Shown here piece after piece: positions 1-18,726 of a DNA stretch of 35,675 bases. A program made the position numbers and the translations under genes. The stretch lies in the NCBI GenBank assembly GCA_025354825.1, contig JANXMC010000425.1:1-35675 (forward strand). Reading direction: 5' to 3'. Within the stretch, counting starts at the first letter, position 1. The number at the start of each line of letters is the position of its first letter. Source of the stretch: Myxococcales bacterium. Lineage in GTDB: Bacteria; Myxococcota_A; Polyangia; Polyangiales; Polyangiaceae. The notes under the pieces were generated by a model. It made no database searches. It had not been told where the DNA came from and saw only the letters and a program-made list of their open reading frames with translations.

Positions 1-1618
1 CACGCGTGTCGGCGTCGTCGTCATTCGCGTAATGGGCAATCGCCGCGACGTTTTCGCGTAATGCTGTATTGCCCAATGCGAGCACGAGCCCCGGGCGATC
101 CTCGGGTTTCGCCTTCTCGAGATCGGCGGCAATCCGCAGGCTAATGCGGGCCGCTCCCGCTTTGTCGCCGGTCCGGTAGGCGTGGGCTGCGGACGCGCCC
201 AAGGTGAGCGCGGCGGCGTGGTGGAGATCGTGGCTGCCATCCGTTGCGTAGAGCCCTTCAATGTAAGCGAGGGTTTCGGCATCGGGCTTCGCGACGAAGC
301 CGAGGCGCTTCACGAGCTCTCCGAACGCACGCGGATCTGCGCGGAGCCCGGGTAAATCGAGCGCCGCACGCATCGCCTTCTGCGCCGCGACGCTCCCCGT
401 CGACGCCAGGAGATCCATCAAGAGCTCACGCCCTCGCACGCCGAGGCGGTCGTCCAAAAAGCGCGCGCCGAGCGTGGTGCAGGCGTCGGGGTGCAGGCGC
501 AAGAAGGCGGCGCTCGCCACGAGAGCCCCTTTTTCGAACGGAACACCTTGGAGATAAGCGGTAATCATTCCGTCGATCTCTTCGAACGACGTTCGCGACG
601 CGAACTTCTCGTCCATGCGTGCCCGCATGTCGGCGGCGCTCGGCCTCTCGCCCGGCGCCACCGCGATGAGCGATTCGGGCGCGAAGACGAAGTCGCGGGG
701 AATCTCGAACGCTGTGATGTTCGCGAGCGTCATCTGAAAGGTCGCGTGGTGGGCGAACGGCGGCGTGGCGCTGGCGGTACCGGCACTGCCGGCCAGGGGC
801 GCGACGACGACGTCCTCGTGGGAGGTGAGGGAGATCACATGCCCCTCACGGGCGATCGCGAAGGTCGCCTTTGCATCGAAAGAGACATCACCGCCGCCGG
901 AGAGGGCCTGGGGGACGACTGTGAGGTTGAGAGGCTTCGCCGTGCGGGATACTCGAAGCGCGTCGTTCGCGTCCGCGGTGTACGTCATCGAGAGCTTGCC
1001 GAGGTTCGAGGTCTCGACCGCCTCCCAAGTTGCAGACTCGGACGAAACGCCGGGCGCGCCCGGAAGAACCACCTGGGACTCGCCGACGATGCTCTGCATC
1101 ACCTGTTTGAAAACCGGCGAGGTATTGGGCGCAAAATAGAGCTTTTGTACCGTGCCGTCCCGCGCGACGACGACCCACGCTTCGGCGCCACCAAACACCG
1201 TTTCGACTGTGCTCTCGGACCCGAGAAGGTTCGCGCCTAGGGCCGTGAGCGCGTGGCGCGACGTGGGGTGAAACGTGGCGGCGAAGATGAAGGCGTCTTC
1301 CTTCTGGCCATAGGATCGGAACGTAAGCTCGCCTGCGAGATCGCTGCTTCCGTCGATCGTCTGCGTGCGTGCGGGGCCAGTCGCTCGCGAATCTTGCATC
1401 TCGAGGCGCGCCGACGAGCCCATGGTCCAGCTCACATCATAAATGTAGGATGCACCTTTTTTCCATTCGAAGAACGCCGGGCGTCTGGGCGTTGTGAACG
1501 CGTCGAATGGTGAGAAGGAGAGTGCGCCGTAGATCGCTTTCGAGCGTAAGAAAGTGCCCGTTCCGAGCGCGCCGAGCGAGACTGCGAGGATACTTGCGAT
1601 AACCAACTTCGTTTTCAT
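1..1618 (-). CDS. Exported protein resembling the vitellogenin/lipid-transfer N-terminal module (3' end outside window)
   Basis: The reading frame is open from an ATG at 1618 to the window edge (539 codons seen, no stop). An AGGAG Shine-Dalgarno at 1625-1629 lies 6 bases upstream of the ATG. The N-terminus MKTKLVIASILAVSLGALG is a signal peptide or membrane anchor. Residues from about 50 (FEWKKGASYIYDVSW) through about 330 are beta-rich. From about 335 the protein becomes alpha-helical with repeated hydrophobic helices, including FLDDRLGVRGRELLMDLLAS followed by TGSVAAQKAMRAAL. This order, a 'W.pG..Y.Y' opening strand, a beta-barrel and then a helical superhelix with 'LlD.L...Gt..A...i', is the layout of the Vitellogenin_N/large lipid transfer module. 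The match is architectural and by eye; a generic HEAT-like exported protein is the alternative. It lies 54 bases downstream of the 1673-4804 gene on the same strand, so the two are probably co-transcribed. Confidence 0.8.
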   Translation of the reverse strand, partial: MKTKLVIASILAVSLGALGTGTFLRSKAIYGALSFSPFDAFTTPRRPAFFEWKKGASYIYDVSWTMGSSARLEMQDSRATGPARTQTIDGSSDLAGELTFRSYGQKEDAFIFAATFHPTSRHALTALGANLLGSESTVETVFGGAEAWVVVARDGTVQKLYFAPNTSPVFKQVMQSIVGESQVVLPGAPGVSSESATWEAVETSNLGKLSMTYTADANDALRVSRTAKPLNLTVVPQALSGGGDVSFDAKATFAIAREGHVISLTSHEDVVVAPLAGSAGTASATPPFAHHATFQMTLANITAFEIPRDFVFAPESLIAVAPGERPSAADMRARMDEKFASRTSFEEIDGMITAYLQGVPFEKGALVASAAFLRLHPDACTTLGARFLDDRLGVRGRELLMDLLASTGSVAAQKAMRAALDLPGLRADPRAFGELVKRLGFVAKPDAETLAYIEGLYATDGSHDLHHAAALTLGASAAHAYRTGDKAGAARISLRIAADLEKAKPEDRPGLVLALGNTALRENVAAIAHYANDDDADTR

Positions 1619-1672
1619 GGGAGACTCCTCGCGGCAACGCCCTCGCGCGCCGGAACGTGGCGATATTTAGGA

Positions 1673-4600
1673 TTAGTACTTGCCGGACGATGCGAGCTTG
1701 TAGAGCTCGAGGGACGTCTCGACGGGCTTGATGAGGGGCCAGGTGTGGTGGATCCCCTTCCAACTGAAGAGCGTCACGCAGCCCCCGATGCCGATGATCT
1801 TCGCGCAGGCGTCGACCTCACCGTCCAGCGAGCCGATGCTCACATCGACGCCTTCTTTGATGTACAGCTCGAGAACGTCGGCGTCGGTCGCCTTGGCCTT
1901 GTGTTGGGCACGCACGCCGGCCTCACCGTAAATGGGCAGTCCGACTTCGATGAGAAGGAGCTTCGCTTCGAGGCCGACCTCCGCGATGAACCCCCAGCCT
2001 CCGTAGGCGTAGAGGTCGCCGCGCACGCCCGCTTTCGGAGTGAACGAGAGGCGTGCGCCGATGAGCGAGCCGCTCGATATGGAGCTGTTCGCCGAAGGCA
2101 TCGCGAAGGTCGCCTCGAGGGGCGCCTCGTAGAAGAACTCGACGTCGATCCCAACGTGCACGTAAACCGGGCCCACCCAGAAGCCGGCGTCGAAGACGTT
2201 TTCGCTGAAGTCGTCGCTGGGGTTGGCGAGGGGCCACGACTGGTTGTACGAGCCCGTAACGGGCGCATAGTTTTTCTGCTTGAGGCCAGCGAGCTCGCCG
2301 AAGCCTACGATGTAGAGGTACTTCTTTGCATCGACGCGTCCGTTGTCGCCGTCGTTCACGCGGGCGCCGGCATGGGCTTCGACGAGGGAGATATCGTTCC
2401 CGAAGGCGCTCGCGTGGGCCTCGAAGTCCGTATTCACGCCCATGGCCATGCGCTGAATCGTCTGGCTCGAATCGCGCTTCAGCACCGTCGCGTCCCACCC
2501 AATGTCGTAGGAGCAGCCCGCGCCGAACGTGTCGTTCCCCCACTGCTGTTTGTCGGCCTTGTGCTGGCCGTAGACGTTCTCCTGCGTGTCCCCCGCGGGG
2601 AGGTGAAGCGCCTGCAAATAGGCCGGATCGCTGCTCGATGTGTCGGCCATATCGACGAGGACGGGGGTCTCTTTTTGGAATTTGCCCAGGTCGAGTTTTC
2701 GCTGCGCGATGAGCGATTGCACACCTTGCCACGACGACTCGTTGGCGAAGGGGACCGACGCGATGTCGTCGACGTTGAAGATCATTTGAAAATTGTTGTG
2801 CGTGAAGCGCTTGCACTCGAGGTAATCGAGCTCCCGCTGGCGCTGCCACTTCTGCGTCGACAGGTGCTCCTCGGTGAAGGTCAGGCGGTTCCAATCGCAC
2901 CCATAGCCGGTACCGAGGCAGCTCTCGGCGTTGTCGAATTTGCGCGCCCACTCGTCGATGACAATGTTGGCAAGCTTGCAGGCCGCCACGCGCGAGCCGT
3001 CGACGGCGTTCTCTGGATCGGCATTCGAGCAGTCGACGCGAGGGTATTTTGCGGTGTTACGAAGTATGGCCCCCGAGGCCGCGCCGCGCCCCGTCGCCGC
3101 GTACGGCGGGAGAATCTTTGGCGGCTTCGATGCATACATGTCCTGTATGTATTTGCTCGCCGTCTGAATCTGAGACCACTGCCCAGGTGGGAGTCCCGTC
3201 CACGTCCCGGCGGTCGCGGCCGTGTACCCGGTGAAGAGGCCCGTGCCTATCGTCGTCCCCGACCCCGGCGTCGGCGTCGTGCCGGTGGTGCCGCCGCCCG
3301 CGGCCGAAGGCGCGATGAGCGCGCTGCGGGCGTAGAGGGTCTTTTGCTGCTGCTGCTGCTGCTGCTGCTGCGGGGGAGCGGCAATCGTGCCGATCGTCCC
3401 AATGCTGCCGATCGTACCGATCGTTCCAACGGTACCGATCGTACCGATCGTACCGATCGTACCGATTTGGCCAATTCCCCCGATGGGCGTGAGCCCACCG
3501 ATGGTCGTGAATCCGCCCGCGTTGATGCCCGATGCGAGCGGCGCGCCGGTGAAGTTGAGCGCCACGGGGAGCTGCATCACATTGGTAATGACCGACGAGA
3601 AGCGGCCTGGATCTCCCAATATGGCCGCGATGCGGAACGGATCACCCCCTAGCCCCATCTGTGCGGCCCCGGGCGCAACGCGCGCGACTTCGAGGGGGTA
3701 CGGGCGGCAGTCGAAGATGTCGAGGTGCTGGGCTTGGCAGCCGATGGCCGTTCCCAAATCCCAAATAGCGCTCTGCGCCTTCTCGTTGCGGTCGAGAAAC
3801 TCTTGCTCTTGCGCCGGGGCGTAGCCGCTCGGCTTCACGCGATTCATCATCGCGTACTCCCAGTCCCATCCGTCCTTGTAGACTTCGATGGCCTTCGCGT
3901 CGCCCGTGCCGACGCTGTAGTACCTCATGCCGAGGCCTAGATCCGACTGGAGCTTGGTGAGGTCTTGCACCAACTGCACGCCGCTCGCAGAGGTCGTGGG
4001 CACCGCCGCGCGGAGCGCATCCCAGAGCGCCGGCGGAAGGTACGACGCTGCCGCGTAGAACGAGTTTTTCGGAATCACGTCGCCCGACGCGTCGTCCGTC
4101 GCGTCCGAGCCGACCCCGATCGGCTGCCCTTCGCGATCGAGAAGCGTGCGCTTTGCAATTTGCGGGGCGACGTTATGAGAGAGCTGGCTCGCCCCAAAGG
4201 CGACGTCGAGCACGCACTGGCTGTCCTGCTTGCACGCGTAGACGGCGTCGAGGAAGCGTTCGTAGTCGTAGTACTTTGCGTAGGTGTAGTCCTCGCACGA
4301 CTCTATGTTGTGCGTCTTGTCGGGGTAGTTGATGCTGCGTGTGTACGATGTGACGTTGGCCGGCGCGACGTTCGCCGCCCACGCGTTGCGCATCGCGCGC
4401 TGCTCCTGCGCCGCCCAGTCGGTTCCGGGGTTCACCTTGAGCGCGCCGGCGTGGGCGCGGTTTCGCGAATTGACGCAGGTGTTGCCCGCCGCATCCATGT
4501 AACACTTCTGAGGCGACGCCTGAAAATACGTGTCCGCTTGGGGCTGGAGGAGCGTCTTGCACGCGGGCCCTTTCGCCGCGCACTGCGTTCCGAACGCTTG

Positions 4601-4804
4601 GCTGTTACATAGCGTTTGTGTGAGCGGCTCGTTGCACGTGAAAGGGCCGTAGACGACGTCGGGATTCGACTCGTTGCTATAGTGGTAAACAGGCACGGGT
4701 CCCGTCGGCTGCACGATGCGCGGCGTTGCGTTCGCGGCGTGCGCGGCACCTCCGGCGACTGCACCCGAAATGCCAAGAGCCGCAATGATGATGTGAGATC
4801 TCAC
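1673..4804 (-). CDS. Large secreted Cys-containing protein with Ile-Gly-Thr repeats and a polyglutamine tract; function unknown
   Basis: This gene encodes 1043 residues from a GTG at 4804. I chose that start because a GGAGG (complement of 4810-4814) lies 5 bases upstream and the first 24 residues then form a clean signal peptide (VRSHIIIAALGISGAVAGGA, with cleavage near AHA-AN). The frame is open further upstream to 5113, but that part has no signal peptide and no ribosome site. The mature N-terminal third has many cysteines (C57, C66, C75, C82, C101, C110), consistent with extracytoplasmic disulfides. Residues about 435-474 are a low-complexity IGT/IGG repeat, followed by nine glutamines (479-487). 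The C-terminal region has amphipathic beta-strand character (YGGWGFIAEVGLEAKLLL). I recognise no enzyme family. It is the first gene of a probable two-gene operon with the vitellogenin-like gene. Confidence 0.85.
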   Translation of the reverse strand: MRSHIIIAALGISGAVAGGAAHAANATPRIVQPTGPVPVYHYSNESNPDVVYGPFTCNEPLTQTLCNSQAFGTQCAAKGPACKTLLQPQADTYFQASPQKCYMDAAGNTCVNSRNRAHAGALKVNPGTDWAAQEQRAMRNAWAANVAPANVTSYTRSINYPDKTHNIESCEDYTYAKYYDYERFLDAVYACKQDSQCVLDVAFGASQLSHNVAPQIAKRTLLDREGQPIGVGSDATDDASGDVIPKNSFYAAASYLPPALWDALRAAVPTTSASGVQLVQDLTKLQSDLGLGMRYYSVGTGDAKAIEVYKDGWDWEYAMMNRVKPSGYAPAQEQEFLDRNEKAQSAIWDLGTAIGCQAQHLDIFDCRPYPLEVARVAPGAAQMGLGGDPFRIAAILGDPGRFSSVITNVMQLPVALNFTGAPLASGINAGGFTTIGGLTPIGGIGQIGTIGTIGTIGTVGTIGTIGSIGTIGTIAAPPQQQQQQQQQKTLYARSALIAPSAAGGGTTGTTPTPGSGTTIGTGLFTGYTAATAGTWTGLPPGQWSQIQTASKYIQDMYASKPPKILPPYAATGRGAASGAILRNTAKYPRVDCSNADPENAVDGSRVAACKLANIVIDEWARKFDNAESCLGTGYGCDWNRLTFTEEHLSTQKWQRQRELDYLECKRFTHNNFQMIFNVDDIASVPFANESSWQGVQSLIAQRKLDLGKFQKETPVLVDMADTSSSDPAYLQALHLPAGDTQENVYGQHKADKQQWGNDTFGAGCSYDIGWDATVLKRDSSQTIQRMAMGVNTDFEAHASAFGNDISLVEAHAGARVNDGDNGRVDAKKYLYIVGFGELAGLKQKNYAPVTGSYNQSWPLANPSDDFSENVFDAGFWVGPVYVHVGIDVEFFYEAPLEATFAMPSANSSISSGSLIGARLSFTPKAGVRGDLYAYGGWGFIAEVGLEAKLLLIEVGLPIYGEAGVRAQHKAKATDADVLELYIKEGVDVSIGSLDGEVDACAKIIGIGGCVTLFSWKGIHHTWPLIKPVETSLELYKLASSGKY
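3344..3370 (-). repeat. CAG/CAA microsatellite encoding Gln9
   Basis: On the coding (minus) strand there are eight CAG codons followed by one CAA, giving nine consecutive glutamines at residues 479-487 of the secreted protein. The tract is pure trinucleotide, so slippage would change length without breaking the frame. It lies directly after the IGT repeat, at the junction between the repeat and the rest of the protein. Confidence 0.95.
3382..3504 (-). repeat. 9-bp tandem repeat encoding Ile-Gly-Thr units
   Basis: A 9-base unit (GTACCGATC on the plus strand) occurs in tandem at 3432-3440, 3441-3449, 3450-3458 and 3459-3467; the last copy ends in T. Degenerate copies lie on both sides. On the coding strand it encodes IGTIGT with occasional Val, Ser, Gln or Gly substitutions (residues about 435-474). 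The 9-base period keeps the frame whatever the copy number. Confidence 0.93.
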
Positions 4805-5124
4805 GGATACCTCCAAAGAGGGCGACGTCGCACGCACGCGTTTCGCAACGCCCGCGCGGCACCATCGCCTTTGCCGCAGGCGCCCCGCTGCGCGTGAGGC
4901 GCGTGCCCCGCAAAGGCCTTCGCGGGCACGCCGCGCGACCTGACATTCCGTCGCGACGATTTCCCCGCAGCGTCGGGCGGCGGCACGCGCGTTGCGAAGG
5001 CGCACGGGGGAGGTCACCCCCACGGGAAGGGGGCGCGTGGACCCCGACATGAGCGCTTTGGGCCGTGAAACCGTGGAAATTGCCGTGTTTGGTGATTGGC
5101 CCGACGGCTGCATAGTCCTACGTC
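4805..5124. other. Divergent intergenic region between two secreted-protein genes
   Basis: These 320 bases have no gene I can support. They must hold the promoters for the minus-strand secreted-protein pair and for the plus-strand HzsA-related operon. I see no convincing -35/-10 pair. The only clear structure is the inverted repeat at 4901-4931. The plus-strand gene at 5125 has no obvious Shine-Dalgarno, whereas the minus-strand gene has GGAGG at 4810-4814. Confidence 0.6.
4901..4931. repeat. Imperfect inverted repeat (hairpin) in the divergent promoter region
   Basis: The arms GCGTGCCC (4901-4908) and GGGCACGC (4924-4931) are perfect complements. After one unpaired C at 4909 the pairing continues with GC/GC. 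The loop contains the 8-base palindrome AAGGCCTT (4913-4920). No T-run follows on either strand, so a terminator is unlikely. It could be an operator or a dispersed palindromic element. Confidence 0.55.
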
Positions 5125-7455
5125 ATGAACCGAGTCCTTCGCTCCCGCGCCGCTCTCCTATCGGTCGCCGTGGCTGCAGCCATCGGCGCTGCATGCACGA
5201 AGACGACTGACGAGCCTCTCGCTGCGGGCGTGTCGTCGATCGTCTTCATCAAGCGCGCTCACACCCTCGTTGCCGCCGACGGCACCGTGAGCGTCGACGT
5301 CGCGGGCGGGAACGGGCAGGTGCTCGACTACGAACGCTACGTTCCGGGCGGGAGCCTGAATGTTCTCAAGCCCGCGCGCCCCGATGGGAAGCTGTCGAAC
5401 GTGACGTCGGACTTTCCGACGGCCGACTTCAACGGTGCGGACGTTTCGTTCGATGCGTCGGAGGTCGTCTTCTCGATGAAGCGCGACAACAACGACCACT
5501 ATCACATTTACACAGCCAGCTTGAACCAGGGCTCGGACGGCAAGTTCGAGATTCACCAGAAGACGGCCGGCGATTACGACGACATCAATCCCATTTACAT
5601 CCCCGGCTCGAAGATCGCCTTCGTGACCAACCAGATGTACACGGAGATGGGTACCCGCGCCGACGAGTACGAGCACGGCCGCGTCGTCACGCAGCTCGCG
5701 TCGATCTCCGTCGACGGCGGCGATGCGGATCGCCGGCTGTTCTCGCAGAATCTGTCTCACACGGTGGCGCCGTTCCTCCGCTCGGATGGCAAAATTGGCT
5801 ATTCGCGGTGGGAGCACTTGGGCCCCGTCAACGACGTGAAGCTCCTCGTGGCGAACCCCGACGGCACCAACATGTTGGCGATTGGCGGGCAGCACGGAAA
5901 GCCGTCGAACGCGCTCTTTTCGATTCGTGAGATGGCTCCCAACGTGATGATCGGAATCGCGACGTCGCGTAACCGAACGATTCACGCCGGGGCCCTCGTG
6001 AAGATCGACGCGCGCAACCAGCAGGACCCTGCCTGTCTCTCCGCGACGGCCGACACGACGGGGCATGCGTGCCTCGATGAAGAGAACGTCGTCTTCACGA
6101 ACCTCACACCCGACGTTCCCACGGGGAACGCGCCGTCGCCGGTGGGTCGCTACCGCGAGCCGTCGATGCTACCCGATGGGCGGATTCTCGTCTCATGGGC
6201 TGACGGCGTGGTGAACGACCAGGCCGAGCAGTCGGTGACACCGCCTGACTTCGGCGTTTATTTGTACGACCCGGCGACGAAGAAGAATCAGCTTTTGTAC
6301 AACGATCGCAACACGTGGGAGCTCAATGCGCTCCCCGTCGTGGCACGGACGGAGCCGCCGGTGATCGGCGATTCGGCACGGAGCGGCGACGCGACGGAGC
6401 CGGTGCGAATCGGCTCCATCGACGTGACGCAGACGAGCCTCACAGATTCGGTCTCGGGCGCGCAGTTCGACAACACGCCCCTCGCGACGGCGCTCAAAGA
6501 CGCTGTGAAGGTTCGTGTCATCGAAGGGTTCTCGAGCGAGGCCGCCAAGGGCGTGACGATGTTCGGCCTGACGATGCACGAAGGCGCGGCCGTTCTCGGC
6601 GAGGCGACGGTTTACAAGGACGGCAGCTGGCTCGCCAATGTGCCGCCCTATCTCCCCGTGCACCTCCAGCCGCTCGACAAGTTCGGTATGGCGATTCGTA
6701 ACCAGATGCTCTGGATTCAGGGCATGCCGGGCGAGGATCGCCGCTGCGTCGGCTGCCACGAAAGCCGCACGGGGCAGGGCGTTCCGCGCAACGGCGCGAA
6801 CCCGACGGTGGCCGAGCAGCGCACCGCGGAGAGCTTCATCCAGGCCGTCGCCGATCGCGTCGAGTACCCGTGGATCATGCCGGCAACGGCCCCCGTACCG
6901 ACGACGCCCGTCGCGGTCGTGCAGCAGCTGTTCAACGACAAATGCGTGTCGTGCCACTCAGGCGGTGCGGGCGACCCGTTCGCGGGGAAGACCTACAAGC
7001 TCACGTCGACCGACCCGGTTTCGGGCGTTGCGACGAGCTACACAATCCCGTACCTCGATCTGTCGGACAAGCCGATTACGGTGACCTACGATCGCAAGGT
7101 GGAGACCTACGCGTCTTCGTATGTCTCGATCTTCTACCCGGCCTCGATGGAAATGGGCATGGGGCAGACGAAGGTCGAAGGCGACATGCCGCCGAAGTGG
7201 GGCATCCCCGGCAACGCGCGCGGCTCGGCGCTCATCGCGGCCGTGAACATCAAAGCGGCGGACGGCACTACGGCATGGCCCGAGGCGACGAAGCCGATGC
7301 ACCCTGAAAACAAGGGTATCGCGCTCACAGATGCCGAACGCCAGACGCTCGTTCGCGTGATGGACCTGGGAGGCCAGTACTACTCCCGCAAGAACACCGG
7401 CTTCGCCCCGTACACGAGCGGCGACCCTGTCGCGGCCGGCCAAAAGTACCCGTGA
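5125..7455 (+). CDS. HzsA-related lipoprotein: TolB-like propeller plus cytochrome-type domain with two CXXCH sites
   Basis: The product has 776 residues. The N-terminus is a lipoprotein signal (MNRVLRSRAALLSVAVAAAI, then lipobox IGAAC), placing it in the envelope. Residues about 35-430 carry beta-propeller-like strands such as SFDASEVVFSMKRDNNDHYH and PSMLPDGRILVSWADG. The C-terminal half has two standard c-type haem sites, CVGCH (541-545) and CVSCH (607-611). This layout, a propeller opening with 'VFIKRAH' and a C-terminal dihaem region, is that of proteins annotated as HzsA-related (hydrazine synthase alpha-subunit-like), which are widespread outside anammox bacteria and mostly uncharacterised. 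Hydrazine synthesis is not implied. The gene overlaps the next one by 4 bases (GTGA), so they are co-translated. No strong Shine-Dalgarno precedes the ATG. The family call is by eye. Confidence 0.85.
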   Translation: MNRVLRSRAALLSVAVAAAIGAACTKTTDEPLAAGVSSIVFIKRAHTLVAADGTVSVDVAGGNGQVLDYERYVPGGSLNVLKPARPDGKLSNVTSDFPTADFNGADVSFDASEVVFSMKRDNNDHYHIYTASLNQGSDGKFEIHQKTAGDYDDINPIYIPGSKIAFVTNQMYTEMGTRADEYEHGRVVTQLASISVDGGDADRRLFSQNLSHTVAPFLRSDGKIGYSRWEHLGPVNDVKLLVANPDGTNMLAIGGQHGKPSNALFSIREMAPNVMIGIATSRNRTIHAGALVKIDARNQQDPACLSATADTTGHACLDEENVVFTNLTPDVPTGNAPSPVGRYREPSMLPDGRILVSWADGVVNDQAEQSVTPPDFGVYLYDPATKKNQLLYNDRNTWELNALPVVARTEPPVIGDSARSGDATEPVRIGSIDVTQTSLTDSVSGAQFDNTPLATALKDAVKVRVIEGFSSEAAKGVTMFGLTMHEGAAVLGEATVYKDGSWLANVPPYLPVHLQPLDKFGMAIRNQMLWIQGMPGEDRRCVGCHESRTGQGVPRNGANPTVAEQRTAESFIQAVADRVEYPWIMPATAPVPTTPVAVVQQLFNDKCVSCHSGGAGDPFAGKTYKLTSTDPVSGVATSYTIPYLDLSDKPITVTYDRKVETYASSYVSIFYPASMEMGMGQTKVEGDMPPKWGIPGNARGSALIAAVNIKAADGTTAWPEATKPMHPENKGIALTDAERQTLVRVMDLGGQYYSRKNTGFAPYTSGDPVAAGQKYP

Positions 7456-8399
7456 ACGCGCACCCTCGAAAAAGAGAAATCACCCTGAAAATCTCCCACA
7501 TGTTTGCGGGTCGCGTTCTCGGCGCCTTGGTTGTCACGGCCACCCTCGCCGCCGCTCCGACGGCGAGGAGCCAAGACAAGTCGCCGGTCGTTCCCACGGT
7601 TCTCCAAGGGATCCCGAAGGATCAGGCCGAGACCGTGGTTACGGGAGACAAGATTCTCGCCGCCGCGTCGTCCGGGTCGATGACGGCGATTTGGGAGACT
7701 CTCGAGTTTGGAGAGAAGGTCGAATGCCTCAACTGCATTCCGGCGGTCGAGCCTCTCCTCTATGATTCGAACCCGCGCACGCGGGAAATCGCAGCCTGGT
7801 GGCTCCGTCGGCGCCTCCTCGGCGTCTTCGGCCCAGGCCAGGCGTACGAACGCACGGCGACGGCTCTCAAGAGCGATGCGAGCCCTGCGAAGCGTGCACG
7901 CGCGGCCGATGCGCTCGGCGAGTTCTTGAGCGCGGCGGGCGTGCCCCTCGTTGCCGATGCCCTCACGACGGACGCCGACGCGGGCGTGCGCGCATCGGCG
8001 GCGAAGGCGCTCGGTCGCTTGAACAGCGACGGCGGCGGAGCGCTCGGTAAGGCGCTCGCCGACAAAGACCCCACCGTGAAGGTCGCCGTCCTCGGTGCGG
8101 CGTCGCGCATCAACGCCTTCGCAGACGTTGCACAGGTCGCCACGCTCCTAAGCGACAGCGCCGCCAATGTGCGCCGTCGGGCGGTCGAGCTCCTCGGCAG
8201 CATGCGCGCGAAGGACACCGTCGCGGGCGTAATGAACATCGCGCGCAACGATCCCGACGAAGGGGTGAGGCTCTCCGCGTGTCACGCGCTCGGGCTGTTT
8301 GGCGACGCGTCGGCGAAGAGCACCTTGTCCGCCATCGCCGACAGCGACACCAGTGGTCTCGTGCGCGATCAAGCGAAGATCGCGCTCCGTCGCCTATAA
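7452..8399 (+). CDS. Exported HEAT-repeat protein
   Basis: This gene encodes 315 residues from a GTG at 7452 that overlaps the TGA of the preceding gene (GTGA). An in-frame ATG at 7500 would also give a good signal peptide (MFAGRVLGALVVTATLAAAP, cleaved near ARS-QD), so the exact start is open. The mature protein is a series of helical HEAT/PBS-lyase-like repeats of about 30 residues, for example 'PLVADALTTDADAGVRASAA' followed by KALGRL, then DPTVKVAVLGAASRI, AANVRRRAVELLGSM and GVRLSACHALGLFGD. Such repeats are protein-binding scaffolds. Its position between two cytochrome-type lipoproteins, coupled to the first and 21 bases from the second, suggests a periplasmic assembly or docking factor for them. 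That role is inferred from context only. Confidence 0.88.
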   Translation: MNAHPRKREITLKISHMFAGRVLGALVVTATLAAAPTARSQDKSPVVPTVLQGIPKDQAETVVTGDKILAAASSGSMTAIWETLEFGEKVECLNCIPAVEPLLYDSNPRTREIAAWWLRRRLLGVFGPGQAYERTATALKSDASPAKRARAADALGEFLSAAGVPLVADALTTDADAGVRASAAKALGRLNSDGGGALGKALADKDPTVKVAVLGAASRINAFADVAQVATLLSDSAANVRRRAVELLGSMRAKDTVAGVMNIARNDPDEGVRLSACHALGLFGDASAKSTLSAIADSDTSGLVRDQAKIALRRL

Positions 8400-8420
8400 C
8401 GAATGTAGACTTCGAGACGT

Positions 8421-11400
8421 ATGCCCACGAAAAACAAGCCTCGCGGAGTAACGCTCGGCGCTGCGGCATTCGTTGCCGTCGCGTCGAGCCTCGCCTTCAC
8501 ACCCGCCGGCTGCTCCAAACGCGAGCCTGAAGAGAGCACGTATTTCAATCGTTCGGTGTCGCCCATCCTGGTGTCGTCGTGCGTCCGTACGAACACAGGC
8601 GCGGGGTGCCACGTCGAGTCGGTTAAGGGGAACGCCTTCGGCAACCTCGACGTGGCGACCTTCGCCGGCCTCAACAAGCGCCGCGATCTCCTCGTCGACT
8701 ACGGCCCCTACGGCCAGCCGGCATTCCTTATTAAGACGGTCGACAACTTCCAAGTTCAGGTCGAATCGTTCGATGGCGTGAAGACGACCATCACCACCGA
8801 TATCAAGCATACGGGCGGGAGTATTTTTCAGCAGACAGGGGGCGCCTACAGCACGCTCCGCCGCTGGATCGAGAACGGCGCGACGGAGAACAACACCGGC
8901 GAGAAGCCGAGCAACGTCGTTCGGCTCCCGTGCGCGACGACGATCCCCGCCAACGCCGAGGCCCTCGGCGCCGATCTCACGAAAGACCCGACGCGCCCTG
9001 ATTTCGACACGTTTCGAAACCGCGTGAATCCCGTCTTCAAACAGACGTGCGCGGCGAGCAACTGCCACGGCGTCGCGTCGAACGAGCTTTATCTCACCTG
9101 CGGCGATACGCCCGAGCAGATTCGCTGGAACTACCACGCGGCAAGCGAGTACCTCTCCCAGGTCCCCGAGCAGAGTGAGATTGTGAGGCGCCCCCTCGCG
9201 CCGGCCCAAGGCGGCAGCTTTCACGAAGGCGGCGTCCTCTTCACCTCCCAAGGCGACTCGGGGTACATCGCCCTGTCCGATTGGGCAAAAGAGCACGGCC
9301 CCGCCGAGCTCCCGGCTCAAGATCCGGCGTTCCTCTTTTTCGCCCACCGCGTTCAGCCGGTGCTCGTGAAAAAGGGGTGCATGATGCTCCAGTGCCACTC
9401 GGCCGCGCTTTTTCACGACTACCGACTTCGCGGCGGCTCGGGCGGCTCGTTCTCCCTTTCGGCGACGCGCCGCAACCACGAGCTGTCGCTCCATCAGGTT
9501 TCCCTGGAGAGCGACGACCCGGCCGCGAGCCGAATGATTCGTAAAAACCTCTTTCGCGCCGAAGTGTTCGACGGCGCAAAAGGGATCACCCATCGCGGCG
9601 GCTCGCTCCTCGAAGACTTCGCCGGTAAGCCCGCGAGCGGCGATCAGTGCGACGCCGCTGCGTACGATTACGACAATGGCAGCCTCGATACGACCCCTGC
9701 ATACTGCATCATTCGTGAGTGGATCAAACGCGAGAAGTCGACCCTCGGCCTCGCGCCGCTCTCGGCGATCGCGTACGTGCGCCGGGGCCTCGACGGCAAA
9801 GGGGCGCGCCCGCAAGACTTCGACGTGTACAGCCCGGGGGCCGATCTCCGAATCATCGGCGCCACCCTGGGGGCAGACGGCGCCGTCACGGTCGGCGCCG
9901 ATTCTTCGGTGACGGCAGGCTGTGGTCTCACAGTCGCAACCGCCGACATTCGAAGGCCTGCGGTTTCGTGGGACGGAAAGACGATCGCCTTCGCCGCCCG
10001 CGGCAGCGAAGCCGAGCCTCTCCAGATTTATACGATGAGCGCCGACGGCAGCGCCTGCGCGAAGCACGCAGCGATCAACGCGGGCGGCCCTTCGGCGAAC
10101 GGCCTTTTGATTCACAACTTCGACCCTGCCTTCGGGCCGACCGAAGCGGGCGGCGTGTCGCGCCTCGTCTTCGCGTCGACGCGCGGCAACGCGGCGGGCG
10201 GCACGTCCGACTACTCGGGCCCGCAGCGCACGCCGGCCGATCCGACGAAGCCGAACGCCAATTTGTACTCCCTCGAGCCGAGCGGCGGTGCCACCAAGAT
10301 TCGCCAGCTCACGTTCCTCCTCAACATGGAACGGCAGCCGAGCTTCATGGCGGACGGCCGCATCATCATGACGGCCGAGAAGCGCGCGCCCGGCTTCTAC
10401 CAACTCGCGGGGCGGCGTATCAACTCCGACGGCGGCGACTACCACCCGCTCTACGCCCAGCGCAGCTCGATCGCCTACCACCAGTTTACAGACGTGGTCG
10501 AGCTCGCCGACAAGAACTTCGCCGCGATCTTCAGCGACGCGGGCGGCCCCCACGGCGGTGGAACGCTTGGAATCGTGAACCGCTCCCTCGGGATCGACTT
10601 TCAAAGCAACGACCCGAAGGACTACCTCGTCGATCCGACTGTCATCGACCCCGCGGCGCCGGCCTCCATCGACCCGAAGTTTTTTCTACGATCTCTCCGG
10701 TTTCCCGACGGGAGCGCCTCGGGGCACGTCACGGGCACCACCACCGGCGTGTACCGAAGCCCCTCGGCGTTGCCGTCGCCCAACCTTCTCGTGAGCTACG
10801 GCGCCGCGTCGTCTCTCATGTCTTTTGGGGGCGATTACGATGTTTACGTCTTCGACCCCGAGACAGGCGTAAAGAGGAAGCTGTTCGGTGAGGCAGGGTC
10901 GGCCGACGTCGAAGCGGTCGCCGTTTACGGGCGCGCGAGCCGTGGGGTGTTTACGTCGGCCCTCGACGAGCCCAACGGACATACGACTGTGATCGACGGA
11001 AAGAGCGAGGCGGACATCACCTACCTCGACGTCCCCGTCCTCGCGTCGCTCCTCTTCCAAAACACGCCCACGGGTCGCCTCTTGGAAGATGGGATTACCA
11101 ATTTCCAACTCTACGAAGATTTGCCGCCTCCGGCCGATGTGACGTCGTTCTCTCAAGGCGGAGCGAATGTCGCGCAGGACGAGTTCGGCCAAGTCTACGT
11201 ACGGCGCCGGCTCCTCGGAAGCGTCCCCGTGGCGGGCGACGGGTCGGCCCACGTCCAGATTCCCGGCGGCCTTCCCGTGCTGTTCAAGCTGCCCACGACG
11301 CAGGTCGCTCGCGACAAAGGGCTGCCGCGCATTCAGCGGGAGGCGATGTCGTTCGCGCCCGGTGAGTACGTTCATCAGTCGTTCCGAAAAGACTTCTTCA

Positions 11401-11576
11401 ACGGCCTGTGTGGTCAGTGCCACGGCGCGATCAGCGGCCGCACGACCGACGTCGCGGTGCAGCCCGACATCTTGACGCAGGCGTCTCGCGTCGAGTCGCG
11501 CGATGCGGTGCCGAGCAATCTCAACCTTCCGCCGGCGATGCGCGGAACGATTGAAGGGCCGCCCGCGACGCCGTAG
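8421..11576 (+). CDS. HzsA-related/PD40 lipoprotein with non-standard CX4CH haem-type motifs
   Basis: The product has 1051 residues and a lipoprotein signal with lipobox TPAGC (Cys31). Three N-terminal segments share the cytochrome-like pattern 'V.P[IVF]....C...CH': SVSPILVSSC with CH at 63-64 (CX8CH), VNPVFKQTCAASNCH (C210, CX4CH) and VQPVLVKKGCMMLQCH (C320, CX4CH). A normal CXXCH (CGQCH, 997-1001) lies near the C-terminus. Between them are TolB/PD40-type propeller strands (VSWDGKTIAFAARG, RQPSFMADGRIIMTAEKR). The overall order, cytochrome-like modules, propeller, then a C-terminal haem site, links it to the HzsA-related gene upstream. It lies 21 bases after the HEAT gene and is probably in the same operon. 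Whether the CX4CH and CX8CH sites bind haem cannot be told from sequence. Confidence 0.83.
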   Translation: MPTKNKPRGVTLGAAAFVAVASSLAFTPAGCSKREPEESTYFNRSVSPILVSSCVRTNTGAGCHVESVKGNAFGNLDVATFAGLNKRRDLLVDYGPYGQPAFLIKTVDNFQVQVESFDGVKTTITTDIKHTGGSIFQQTGGAYSTLRRWIENGATENNTGEKPSNVVRLPCATTIPANAEALGADLTKDPTRPDFDTFRNRVNPVFKQTCAASNCHGVASNELYLTCGDTPEQIRWNYHAASEYLSQVPEQSEIVRRPLAPAQGGSFHEGGVLFTSQGDSGYIALSDWAKEHGPAELPAQDPAFLFFAHRVQPVLVKKGCMMLQCHSAALFHDYRLRGGSGGSFSLSATRRNHELSLHQVSLESDDPAASRMIRKNLFRAEVFDGAKGITHRGGSLLEDFAGKPASGDQCDAAAYDYDNGSLDTTPAYCIIREWIKREKSTLGLAPLSAIAYVRRGLDGKGARPQDFDVYSPGADLRIIGATLGADGAVTVGADSSVTAGCGLTVATADIRRPAVSWDGKTIAFAARGSEAEPLQIYTMSADGSACAKHAAINAGGPSANGLLIHNFDPAFGPTEAGGVSRLVFASTRGNAAGGTSDYSGPQRTPADPTKPNANLYSLEPSGGATKIRQLTFLLNMERQPSFMADGRIIMTAEKRAPGFYQLAGRRINSDGGDYHPLYAQRSSIAYHQFTDVVELADKNFAAIFSDAGGPHGGGTLGIVNRSLGIDFQSNDPKDYLVDPTVIDPAAPASIDPKFFLRSLRFPDGSASGHVTGTTTGVYRSPSALPSPNLLVSYGAASSLMSFGGDYDVYVFDPETGVKRKLFGEAGSADVEAVAVYGRASRGVFTSALDEPNGHTTVIDGKSEADITYLDVPVLASLLFQNTPTGRLLEDGITNFQLYEDLPPPADVTSFSQGGANVAQDEFGQVYVRRRLLGSVPVAGDGSAHVQIPGGLPVLFKLPTTQVARDKGLPRIQREAMSFAPGEYVHQSFRKDFFNGLCGQCHGAISGRTTDVAVQPDILTQASRVESRDAVPSNLNLPPAMRGTIEGPPATP

Positions 11577-14784: not shown

Positions 14785-17700
14785 CTATTTCGTAGTCACG
14801 CCGGCGCTCGGCAGCGTCGCGCAAATACGAGCACCCGCGGTCGCGTCGCGCATCTCGGGCTCGACCACATTGCGGTTCACGGACGGGTTCGTCCGTCGTC
14901 CGAAATAGTAGCTCCCACCCCGCACGACGCGTTCGTCGGGGGCGAGGGACGAATCGACCCACTCCCAAACGTTGCCGACGAGATCGTCGACCCCAAAGGG
15001 GCTTTGCGACGTTGGGTGGCTGCCCACTTCGTCGGGGCCGAAGGCCATCGGCTTTCGGCCGTAGGTCTCGTCGTAGTTCGCGTCGTCGGGCTCGAGCCTA
15101 TCGCCGTGGGCCCAAATGCGGTCGTCGGCGCCGCGGGCCGCGCGTTCCCATTCATATTCGGTACAGAGGCGCGCGCCGGGTACGCGGCCGCTCGTAGCCA
15201 GCCATGCGGCGTAGCCCACGGCGTCGTCCCAGGTGATGCCGGAGACGGGGAACCTCGCCCACTCTTGTGTGGCGCGGAGGGCGCGGCCGGCGTAGCGCAT
15301 CGGTTCGCCCTCGTGGGCCTCGTACGCCTGCGCATTGGGTTGCATCACGAGGGTGAAGAGGCCGCTCTTCTCTTCACGCAGCGCGAGGGATCCGTTGAGC
15401 CCAGCGGTCGACGCACGGGGCGTGCGTCGCGCTCGCTCGGAAGCGGGGAGCGTGCGCAAATAGGCTATCCATTCGCCGAACGTCGTTTCGTATTTGGCAA
15501 TCGCGTAGGCCGACGTCGTGACCTCGCGGAGGGGCGTCGTGTCGAAGAACGAGCGGCGTAGATCTTCGTCCCCGCCGCTGCCAAAGAGGAAGCGCCCCGG
15601 TGGAACGTAGGCGAAGCCCGCGGGAATCGAGCCGCTCGTCGGGAGCGCAATCGTCAACGTGCGCTCGTCGCCCGCGGCGAGGACGAGGGGGTACTTCACC
15701 TCGACGAAGCCCGCGTGTGAAACGACGAGGCGGTACGAACCAGGCGCGAGGGGCTTTGCGGCGAAAGGCGATCTGCCGAGGCGAACCGCGGGGCCGCGGG
15801 CACGGCGATCGGCGTTCTCGTAGCGCTCGATCGCGACGTCGGCGTCGGCGGGGAGCGTCACGACGCCGAGCCGCGCGGGCGCGTGGAGGCGTGAGGTACG
15901 AGCTCCTCCGTCGTCGACTTGAGAGAGGCGCGCGAGGAGCGCGTCGCGCCGCTCGAACTTCCGCTGCGCATCGGCGAGCGTGCTCGCTTCGAAGATGGTG
16001 TCGGCCAGCGCCGCGCGCGTCTCGGGTCGGCGATCGTCGATCGAGAGCGCGGCCTCGAAGCTCCGTAGTGAGCGCGCGAAGGCGTCTTGAGCGTCGTTCG
16101 CGTCTCGCGTGGCGGTGTCCCATGCGTTTTCGCCGCGCGTGCGCTCGCGGGCATCGAACCGCGCGAAGGCCTCGTTTCGAGCCTCGGCGAAGGCGCGTGT
16201 CATCGCGCGAGCTTCGTCGAGCGCCGTCGCGGCCTCGGTCGTGCGTGCGGCGATCTGGCGATCTTGCTCATGCCGCGCCGACGACCGCGTCGCGAAGGTG
16301 ACGGCCGCAATCAGCGTGGGCACGGCGACGATCGCGAGGGTCACGCCGATGCGCTTTCGCAGCACCGCCGCCCGCGAGCGCGTGAGGAACGACGCTTCGC
16401 GAAGGCTCAACGTCCCTGGGCCGGCGTGCGAAAGCGCGCGCGCTTCGGCCAGCTGCCGCGCCGCCCATAACGCTTCGACGGGCTCGCCGAGGCGTTCCCA
16501 TTCCGCCGCTGCGCGCGCGAGCCGCTCGCGAAGCGCCCGCTCCTCGGCGTCGCTCGCGAGCCACGCCCGCAGCGTGTTCCAGCCACGAAGCAGCGCCTCG
16601 TGGGCCACCTCGACGACGGTCTCCTCGCCATCGGCCGACGCGCGCGCGACGACGAGGCGCCCGCGCACGAGGGCGTCGAGGGCCGACGCCGACGCGCCGC
16701 TCTCGGCGCCGAGCTCGCGCACGGTGCGCTCTGCGCGCGTTCCGTCGGGCGTGACGAGCTGGCCGAACAGCCTTCGAACGATCGCCCGTTCTTCGGGGAG
16801 AAGCGCCGCGACCACACCGTCCGCGTGCCGCGTGAGGGCGCCCGACACGCCGCCCATCGCGTCGAGCGCCGTGCGCGTGAGCAAGCGGGCTTCGGCGTTT
16901 CGAGCCTCCCACAGCTCGGCGAGGGCGAACTGCAAAAGCGGCAATCCGCCTTCGGCACGCTCGACCCACGCTGCGAGCTCTTCGACCGTCGCCTGGCTGT
17001 CGAAGCCGTGGGCCATCGCCCTCGCGGGGCCTTCGATCGCTTCGCGCAGACCGCTCGCGCGGAGCGGCCCCAAGATGTGCACGGCGCGCGTGATCTCGCT
17101 CCCCAGCCCCGTGCGACCAACGACGCGACCCAGGAAATCTTCGCGCGTGACCAGGACGAAGCGGAGGCCGTCGACGTCTTCCGCGAGGCGCAAAATGGCG
17201 CTCCCAAAGGCGCGTGCGTCTTCCGGCGTGGCGAGGGTGACGAGCTCTTCGAGCGGATCGATGACGACGATGAGCCCCGTGTCGTGGCCGAGGGCGCGAA
17301 CGAGGGTGCGCGACGCATCTCCCGGGCGCGTTCGAAGCTCGTCTTCGAAGAGCAACGTGGCGCGCGCATCGAGGCCCACGGCGCGGGCGAGGACGCGCGC
17401 GAGGACGCCGTCGGGGGCGCGCCCGGGCGAGAGCGACACGCTTCGATACGTGCGCTCTGCACCAAGTGCTCCGCCGACGACGGCGGGGACGACGCCCGCG
17501 TGGCAGAGGGACGATTTACCGACGCCGGAGCTCCCCGCCACGGTGACGATGGGCGCCCGTCGAAGCAGCTCGACGACGTCGCGCACCTCGGCGCCGCGCC
17601 CAAAAAACACCGCCGCGTGGGCGGCGTCGAAGGCGTGGAGACCACGGTATGGGTTTCCCTCGGGCAGAGACCCCGCACCGGCCGGGCGCGCGGCCAAGTC

Positions 17701-18726
17701 GTCGAGGGCACGGCGAAGCTCTTCGCCCGAGGCGAAGCGTGCGAGCGGATCGCGGCGCAGGCAGCGGTCGACGACCTGCGCGAGGCCGGCATCGACCTCG
17801 GGGGCGACCGATGCGAGGGGCGGAACGATGGCCGTCCGGACCTTCTGTCCAAGCTCCTGCGGCGTCGCCGCCTGGTGGGGCGCGGCGCCCGAGGCGAGCT
17901 CGTACAGCAGCGCGCCCGCCGAATAGATGTCGGCCCGCGCCGTCCCCGGCTGGCCGTCCCAGACCTCGGGCGCCATGTAGCGCGGCGTCCCGAGCACCGT
18001 GCCGACGGCCGTGAGATGGGCGGCATCGGACGGCGTGACGACGTCGGATCGCGGTAGAAAAAGCGGCTCCGGCGTGCGCGACACCGTCATATCGAGAAGG
18101 TCGAGGGCGTCGAGACCGCCGGCCGCGACCGTATCGGCGAAGGGGGTCGAGTCGTCGACCGACGCGGTGACCGCGAGGGCCGAGAGCGACGAGACGCGCG
18201 GCGGAGAGTCGCTCAGGCTCGGACCGGCGGCGAGAGACGCAGACGCTTCGGCGTCGACGAGCTTCGCGAGGCCGAAGTCGACGAGCTTCACGTCGCCGTC
18301 GTCCGACAGAAGAACGTTGGCTGGCTTCACGTCGCGGTGGACGATGCCGTGGCGATGCACCTCGGCGAGGCCCCGCGCAACGCCGAGCGCGACGTTGATC
18401 AGCAGCTCGCGCGAGAGAGGACGCGGGACCAGATCGAGGCTCGCGCCGCGGATGTATTCCGATACGAGATACGGCCGGTCGCCCATCATCCCGACGCGGT
18501 GAATCGCGACGACGTTGGGGTGCGTGAGGCGCGCGACGGCCCGTGCCTCGATGAGGAATCGGTCGCGCGCGCTCGGCGTAGGCGCGAGGGCGGCGAGGAA
18601 CTTGATTGCGACCAGGCGATCGAGAAGCGTGTCGCGGGCGAGGTAGACGCTCCCCATCGCGCCCGACCCGAGGAGCCGAAGCAGGCGGTACTCTTCGAAC
18701 TGATCGGGCGGGTAAAAGCTCGGCAC
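14785..18726 (-). CDS. Ser/Thr protein kinase fused to STAND-type NTPase, PEGA-like and SUMF1 domains
   Basis: The product has 1313 residues. The Hanks-type kinase (about 13-345) has the P-loop GSGAMGSVYLA, Lys42, HRDVKPANVLL (130-140), DFG (150-152) and APE (252-254), so it looks active. An nSTAND1-like NTPase follows, with Walker A GSSGVGKS (398-405), Walker B-like LIVVIDPLEEL (about 485-495) and the typical HEALLRGW near 709-716. A single transmembrane helix (about 793-813), a coiled region, a PEGA-like beta domain (about 953-1030) and a SUMF1/FGE-fold domain (about 1036-1305; LCTEYEWERAARG, VGNVWEWVDS, VVRGGSYYFG) complete it. The kinase should be cytoplasmic and the SUMF1 domain on the other side of the membrane. 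The SUMF1 domain lacks the catalytic Cys pair of true formylglycine-generating enzymes. About 99 residues separate DFG from APE. The gene follows the sigma-54 activator by 60 bases on the same strand. Confidence 0.95.
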   Translation of the reverse strand: MPSFYPPDQFEEYRLLRLLGSGAMGSVYLARDTLLDRLVAIKFLAALAPTPSARDRFLIEARAVARLTHPNVVAIHRVGMMGDRPYLVSEYIRGASLDLVPRPLSRELLINVALGVARGLAEVHRHGIVHRDVKPANVLLSDDGDVKLVDFGLAKLVDAEASASLAAGPSLSDSPPRVSSLSALAVTASVDDSTPFADTVAAGGLDALDLLDMTVSRTPEPLFLPRSDVVTPSDAAHLTAVGTVLGTPRYMAPEVWDGQPGTARADIYSAGALLYELASGAAPHQAATPQELGQKVRTAIVPPLASVAPEVDAGLAQVVDRCLRRDPLARFASGEELRRALDDLAARPAGAGSLPEGNPYRGLHAFDAAHAAVFFGRGAEVRDVVELLRRAPIVTVAGSSGVGKSSLCHAGVVPAVVGGALGAERTYRSVSLSPGRAPDGVLARVLARAVGLDARATLLFEDELRTRPGDASRTLVRALGHDTGLIVVIDPLEELVTLATPEDARAFGSAILRLAEDVDGLRFVLVTREDFLGRVVGRTGLGSEITRAVHILGPLRASGLREAIEGPARAMAHGFDSQATVEELAAWVERAEGGLPLLQFALAELWEARNAEARLLTRTALDAMGGVSGALTRHADGVVAALLPEERAIVRRLFGQLVTPDGTRAERTVRELGAESGASASALDALVRGRLVVARASADGEETVVEVAHEALLRGWNTLRAWLASDAEERALRERLARAAAEWERLGEPVEALWAARQLAEARALSHAGPGTLSLREASFLTRSRAAVLRKRIGVTLAIVAVPTLIAAVTFATRSSARHEQDRQIAARTTEAATALDEARAMTRAFAEARNEAFARFDARERTRGENAWDTATRDANDAQDAFARSLRSFEAALSIDDRRPETRAALADTIFEASTLADAQRKFERRDALLARLSQVDDGGARTSRLHAPARLGVVTLPADADVAIERYENADRRARGPAVRLGRSPFAAKPLAPGSYRLVVSHAGFVEVKYPLVLAAGDERTLTIALPTSGSIPAGFAYVPPGRFLFGSGGDEDLRRSFFDTTPLREVTTSAYAIAKYETTFGEWIAYLRTLPASERARRTPRASTAGLNGSLALREEKSGLFTLVMQPNAQAYEAHEGEPMRYAGRALRATQEWARFPVSGITWDDAVGYAAWLATSGRVPGARLCTEYEWERAARGADDRIWAHGDRLEPDDANYDETYGRKPMAFGPDEVGSHPTSQSPFGVDDLVGNVWEWVDSSLAPDERVVRGGSYYFGRRTNPSVNRNVVEPEMRDATAGARICATLPSAGVTTK

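Follow-up and report, generated by a model that had tools for sequence, protein, structure and literature searches.

The locus described here raises the question as to what two lipoproteins related to HzsA, the alpha subunit of hydrazine synthase (HZS), might be doing on either side of a HEAT-repeat protein in a bacterium belonging to the class Polyangia. To our knowledge, hydrazine synthase was until recently believed to have no relatives. HzsA relatives are known outside the anammox bacteria, where they occur in alpha/beta-gamma clusters (PMC10732223, PMC12758564), and these homologues have been proposed to form a broader family with other substrates (PMC12758564, PMC10732223). The three genes studied here, called A, B, and C, were identified in a window of 35,675 nucleotides (the whole stretch of DNA analyzed). 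No description of an A-HEAT-C module was found in the open-access literature, which excludes most subscription journals.

The features of the locus are listed in Table 1, along with those of other loci (L numbers) and genomes (G numbers) mentioned below. Genes A and B overlap by the four bases GTGA (7452-7455), which hold the end of A and the GTG start of B, and gene C begins after a gap of 21 bases, as stated in the preliminary description of this DNA. The translational coupling of the first pair proposed there is in line with the overlap seen in the window, but the start of B is not certain, ATG 7500 being an alternative to GTG, and the spacing between A and B ranges from -4 to +143 among relatives (from 8 to 316 between B and C). 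Since the A-B spacing is variable, it is the order of the genes that is conserved, and not the tight coupling. The probable divergent control region upstream of A showed no sigma-70 consensus in a promoter scan.

Table 1. Positions of the genes, motifs, and neighboring features in the window and of HzsA-like or propeller-dihaem genes at other loci.
Sequence	Feature	Positions	Strand	Description and conservation
Window	Divergent neighbor of gene A	1673-5113	-	Large exported-looking protein; likely start ~4804, not 5113
Window	Probable divergent control region	4805-5124	.	Separates gene A from its minus-strand neighbor, the likely start of which (~4804) is placed by codon usage only
Window	Gene A	5125-7455	+	776 aa, predicted HzsA-fold lipoprotein; lipobox Cys24, six-bladed-type propeller (~34-408), HZS_alpha middle domain (~474-546), C-terminal cytochrome domain
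Window	A haem-c motif 1, CVGCH, residues 541-545	6745-6759	+	41/41 orthologues; aligned to HZS CSGCH, counterpart of the HZS haem alphaI site; His+4 is T549, not Tyr
Window	A haem-c motif 2, CVSCH, residues 607-611	6943-6957	+	41/41 orthologues; aligned to HZS CAMCH, counterpart of the HZS haem alphaII site
Window	A His726	7300-7302	+	41/41 orthologues; candidate distal ligand of the second haem
Window	Gene B	7452-8399	+	315 aa from GTG; exported HEAT-repeat protein
Window	B CxxC (C92, C95)	7725-7736	+	38/38 orthologues
Window	Gene C	8421-11576	+	1051 aa, predicted HzsA-fold lipoprotein; lipobox Cys31, N-terminal haem region (~40-440), propeller (~446-838), C-terminal part with HzsA-like middle domain and CXXCH
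Window	C haem-like motif 1 (C54, C63, H64)	8580-8612	+	Cys 38/38, His 37/38 orthologues
Window	C haem-like motif 2, CX4CH (C210-H216)	9048-9068	+	38/38 orthologues
Window	C haem-like motif 3, CX4CH (C320-H326)	9378-9398	+	38/38 orthologues
Window	C haem-c motif 4, CGQCH, residues 997-1001	11409-11423	+	38/38 orthologues; in the HzsA-like domain
Window	Kinase-domain protein	14785-18726	-	1313 aa
L050 (genome G118)	Propeller-dihaem-HzsA-like polypeptide	5352-9659	+	1435 aa
L053	ApbE-like gene	5193-6200	+	335 aa
L058	Lone C-type paralogue	6474-9599	-	
L061	Lone C-type paralogue	6387-9488	-	
L145 (G000:C850, window's genome)	Propeller-plus-dihaem protein	3-1985		YVTN/MauG-like; at a contig edge

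The HzsA middle domain (PF18582) was detected in A with a score of 58.7 bits (cut-off 26.6), followed by cytochrome c signals, and it was matched by all 41 A orthologues at E<=0.001. When the profile of these 41 sequences was compared with the PDB, the HzsA of Kuenenia stuttgartiensis was the sole match at E<=0.01 (6.2e-25), the aligned segments being colinear from the propeller through the C-terminal cytochrome domain. The AlphaFold model of A (mean pLDDT 82.6) also gave HzsA (PDB 5c2v) as its top match among solved structures (Z 32.6, 577 residues), and this was its only full-length match. In the case of C, a PD40 propeller signal was present and PF18582 scored 19.0 bits, which is below the cut-off; this domain was matched at E<=0.01 by 20 of the 38 C orthologues (best 3.8e-7), and the profile of the 38 sequences had HzsA as its best PDB match (1.2e-11). 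The AlphaFold model of C (mean pLDDT 83.1) again matched 5c2v first (Z 33.3 over 494 residues), in a comparison covering mostly residues 370-948. The next structural matches of both models are TolB propellers (Z ~25-27), which align with the propeller part only: TolB, which belongs to the Tol-Pal system, has just the propeller fold in common with A and C, and contains no haem domain. Since the predicted folds match 5c2v first for both models, A and C are both HzsA-fold proteins as far as modeling can tell, C despite its weak Pfam score; the likeness extends over nearly the whole chain in the case of A, and over the propeller and the middle domain in that of C. The HzsA relationship of the flanking lipoproteins, which had been proposed from the DNA at the outset, is thus borne out by the middle-domain HMM in A and by the top match of the two models.

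As in HzsA, the propeller of A is followed by a middle domain containing CXXCH and then by a cytochrome domain, and A likewise has two haem motifs; in the profile alignment its His726 lies a few residues from His772, which in HZS is the distal ligand of the bis-His haem alphaII. Three of the four motifs of C are non-canonical (CX6-8CH, CX4CH, and CX4CH): the first is CX8CH in the window and CX6CH in many orthologues, with a single replacement of its His by Q. Not all of these CX4CH and CX6-8CH motifs may necessarily carry haem. The N-terminal haem region of C is given no name by Pfam; in the C profile, its first haem domain aligns weakly to the HzsA alphaII domain, a hint that C may have its cytochrome part at the N terminus. 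The preliminary description had assigned a propeller and a haem site to each lipoprotein; these are indeed present, but C was undercounted, as it carries three further haem motifs at the N terminus. The lipobox cysteine is conserved in all the orthologues of A (41/41) and C (38/38), and lipobox-like residues occur in 37/41 and 34/38 of them, respectively, the sequences in the window (IGAAC and TPAGC) being atypical at -3. As expected of c-type cytochromes, the two motifs of A and the four of C are conserved and occur in exported proteins, so that covalent haem attachment is predicted. A and C differ from HzsA in that both are lipoproteins and in the three additional N-terminal haem motifs of C.

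The protein encoded between them had been described as an exported HEAT protein, and this reading holds: HEAT_2 scored 99 bits against 27.7 (1.9e-28) and HEAT scored 60.2 against 23.5. The residues E85, E88, C92, C95, R111, W116, and W117, which are kept in 38/38 orthologues, form the main invariant block of B (ExxExxxCxxC ... R ... WW). B is taken here to be a scaffold, but a role in haem loading is also conceivable in view of its invariant CxxC. A reading in which B is a maturation factor and not a scaffold, its redox-active or haem-handling CxxC assisting haem loading at the non-canonical sites in C and A, finds support in the invariance of this CxxC, in the weak similarity of B to HEAT-type bilin lyases and NblB, and in the fact that B always accompanies proteins with CX4CH and CX6-8CH motifs. 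We nevertheless consider it unlikely, since the HEAT-family matches of B are generic, and CX4CH motifs are also present in paralogues at loci having no B-type gene, such as L058 and L059.

The three genes occur in the order A-B-C in 65 of the 80 loci fetched from named genomes, and since 12 of the other 15 loci end before C is visible, they are contiguous in 65 of the 68 loci in which this could be tested; the conserved linkage with the HEAT gene suggested at the outset is therefore present. In the other three loci (L071, L073, and L096), C does not adjoin B, and it is located on another contig in the genomes of L071 and L096, which means that the role of C as a partner is not absolute. In G289, which consists of a single 10.3-Mb contig, A, B, and C are found in order. 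The genes around the trio differ between families (MutS, SPOR protein, sigma factor, HisI-like, DsbD-like, and kinases, named from reading the sequences), and general synteny is ruled out as the cause of the linkage by these variable flanking genes. In a class sample of 138 Polyangia genomes, B (at E<=1e-25) and C (at E<=1e-30) are present in the same 46 genomes, and strong matches to A were obtained in those 46 plus two genomes of an earlier, slightly larger sample (Fisher test of co-occurrence, which ignores shared descent, 1e-37). No second copy of A or C was found in the window's genome. The presence of the module is patchy within families, so that the unit appears to have been gained or lost as a block. 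When 84,980 species were scanned, 80 of 89 relatives were retained, all of which are titled as Myxococcota lineages, Deltaproteobacteria, or unspecified Proteobacteria MAGs; versions more distant than these may exist in other groups. From the contiguity, the identical phyletic profile, and the lipoprotein signals, we infer the "defined envelope complex" proposed in the preliminary description, the interaction itself being a prediction. The module, which is a fixed three-gene unit in a third of the Polyangia sampled, provides a defined object for probing the HzsA relatives outside anammox, through which roles of the HzsA fold apart from hydrazine chemistry may come to light.

As to whether this unit might make hydrazine, it differs from HZS in several features. 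The ligand of the alphaI haem in HZS is Tyr591, which stands at +4 from His587, the histidine of the CXXCH of this haem. A has no equivalent of this Tyr: HZS Tyr591 falls in an insertion in the A profile alignment, and the His+4 position of the first motif is occupied by T (22 sequences), A (5), G (4), V (4), S (2), or D (2), the pattern having left two unread. The alpha-subunit equivalog NF052339 scored 48.5 bits with A and 20 bits with C, the cut-off being 800. In place of beta and gamma, the A-type protein is accompanied by a HEAT protein and by another protein of the HzsA fold; no propeller-dihaem (MauG-type) gene was found among the window neighbors or recurrently beside A-B-C. Lastly, PF13447 (HAO/HDH-type) had no match in the window's genome, while the same search matched 22/138 class genomes. 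In view of the missing His+4 Tyr, the equivalog score of A, the lack of a linked beta-gamma gene, and the lack of an HAO/HDH-type match, the module is not a hydrazine synthase. The contrary reading, in which hydrazine would be formed from NO or hydroxylamine and ammonium with the help of a partner in trans, can draw on the HzsA fold and on the propeller-plus-dihaem protein of the window's genome (C850), which is unlinked, resembles the beta-gamma architecture, and is a possible partner in trans. We regard it as extremely improbable on the above grounds, to which can be added that PF13447 is present in 5/46 of the genomes carrying A-B-C (17/92 of the others; Fisher p 0.33) and that NirK exceeds its cut-off in only 8/46 of them (6/92 of the others; Fisher p 0.07), and not in the window's genome. 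Neither NirK nor HAO/HDH-type co-occurrence explains the module, and no genomic context pointing to a substrate was found. Caution is called for in metagenome surveys, as PF18582 alone would mark these bacteria as anammox-like.

The clade I-IV HzsA homologues found outside anammox (PMC12758564) and the hzs-like genes of Phycisphaerae/KSB1 (PMC10732223) are located beside fused beta-gamma, FG-GAP, or transporter genes. Their hosts are Planctomycetota, Desulfobacterota, and others, and Myxococcota are not named in the main text of PMC12758564. All the clade I-III homologues show a gap at the Tyr591 position, and a canonical haem-c pocket is predicted for homologues without this Tyr (PMC12758564). 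The zinc ligand Cys303, a position lying outside the segments aligned in the A profile, is missing from some anammox bacteria (PMC12758564). The present module is similar to the clade I-IV homologues and the hzs-like genes as regards the HzsA fold, the haem binding (predicted here), and the unconserved Tyr591 position, but differs from them in that it includes a HEAT gene and a second HzsA-fold gene and occurs in Myxococcota.

Further HzsA-like genes are carried by the Polyangia themselves. At L051, L052, L053, L059, and L060, they adjoin or lie near propeller-dihaem (YVTN/MauG) genes, and HZS-like alpha and beta-gamma pairs thus exist in this class alongside the A-HEAT-C module. The L050 polypeptide, which combines a YVTN propeller, a MauG-like dihaem part, and an HzsA-like part (PF18582, 61 bits), reads as a beta-gamma-alpha fusion; its alphaI-type motif CQGCHERRYR has a Tyr at His+4, which is the spacing of HZS Tyr591 (a putative equivalence), as does CQGCHEPRYR at L052, while L051 has a His there. 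The L053 gene, identified as ApbE-like (flavin transferase) by reading, is located between the propeller-dihaem and HzsA-like genes. The lone C-type paralogues at L058 and L061 have no adjoining A or B, and their genomes also carry the module. Unlike the HzsA-like proteins at L050-L053, L059, and L060, which are beside or fused to propeller-dihaem proteins, A-B-C has none linked to it.

In a phylogeny built on the region common to these proteins, the root of which is not settled, A and C fall into separate clades (support 100/99), and since these are well supported, A and C would seem to have two fixed roles and not to result from a recent duplication. The nearest relatives in the tree are L050-L052 in the case of A and L053, L059, and L060 in that of C; as these have YVTN/MauG (beta-gamma-like) partners, the sequences suggest that A and C both descended from alpha-type proteins with beta-gamma partners. 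It is possible, though we put this forward tentatively, that an HZS-derived enzyme complex of the Polyangia envelope is made up of two lipid-anchored haem proteins of the HzsA fold, paired as alpha and alpha' and joined by a CxxC-HEAT protein, and that it catalyzes a different small-molecule reaction (with a nitrogen oxide or hydroxylamine, for example), the additional haems of C replacing beta-gamma.

The explanation we prefer is that A-B-C is a conserved Polyangia module encoding a multihaem redox complex that is anchored in the envelope and distinct from hydrazine synthase. With catalysis included, we give it an even chance of being correct, whereas its fold and co-inheritance parts can be held with high confidence. 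In such a complex, A and C would bind haem and be held together by B. A small redox substrate, which at a guess might be a reactive nitrogen or oxygen species, would bind at a canonical His-ligated c-haem, namely the alphaI-type haem in A and perhaps also in C, and electrons would pass to or from this haem through the cytochrome domain of A and the haems at the N terminus of C. The preliminary reading as an oxidoreductase or electron sink is plausible.

The second of these terms corresponds to a reading in which A and C are an electron-transfer conduit or sink, that is, envelope wiring with no catalytic haem, in which the haems would be six-coordinate and the propellers would serve as docking platforms. 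Between them, the two lipoproteins have as many as six haem motifs, of which C carries four, and the alphaI-specific Tyr of HZS is missing from A as it is from other homologues (PMC12758564), both of which would suit a conduit. This seems to us to be possible but rather doubtful: the conserved neighbors of the trio include neither an outer-membrane porin nor any other conduit gene, and the whole HzsA body is kept in A and C, including the middle domain which houses a catalytic haem in HZS.

Two other genes of the window deserve mention. The large protein divergent from gene A, for which no Pfam match was obtained, contains a GTIGTIG-type repeat and a run of nine Q. Further downstream, on the minus strand, a single protein combines a protein kinase domain with an nSTAND1 NTPase and an FGE-sulfatase domain.
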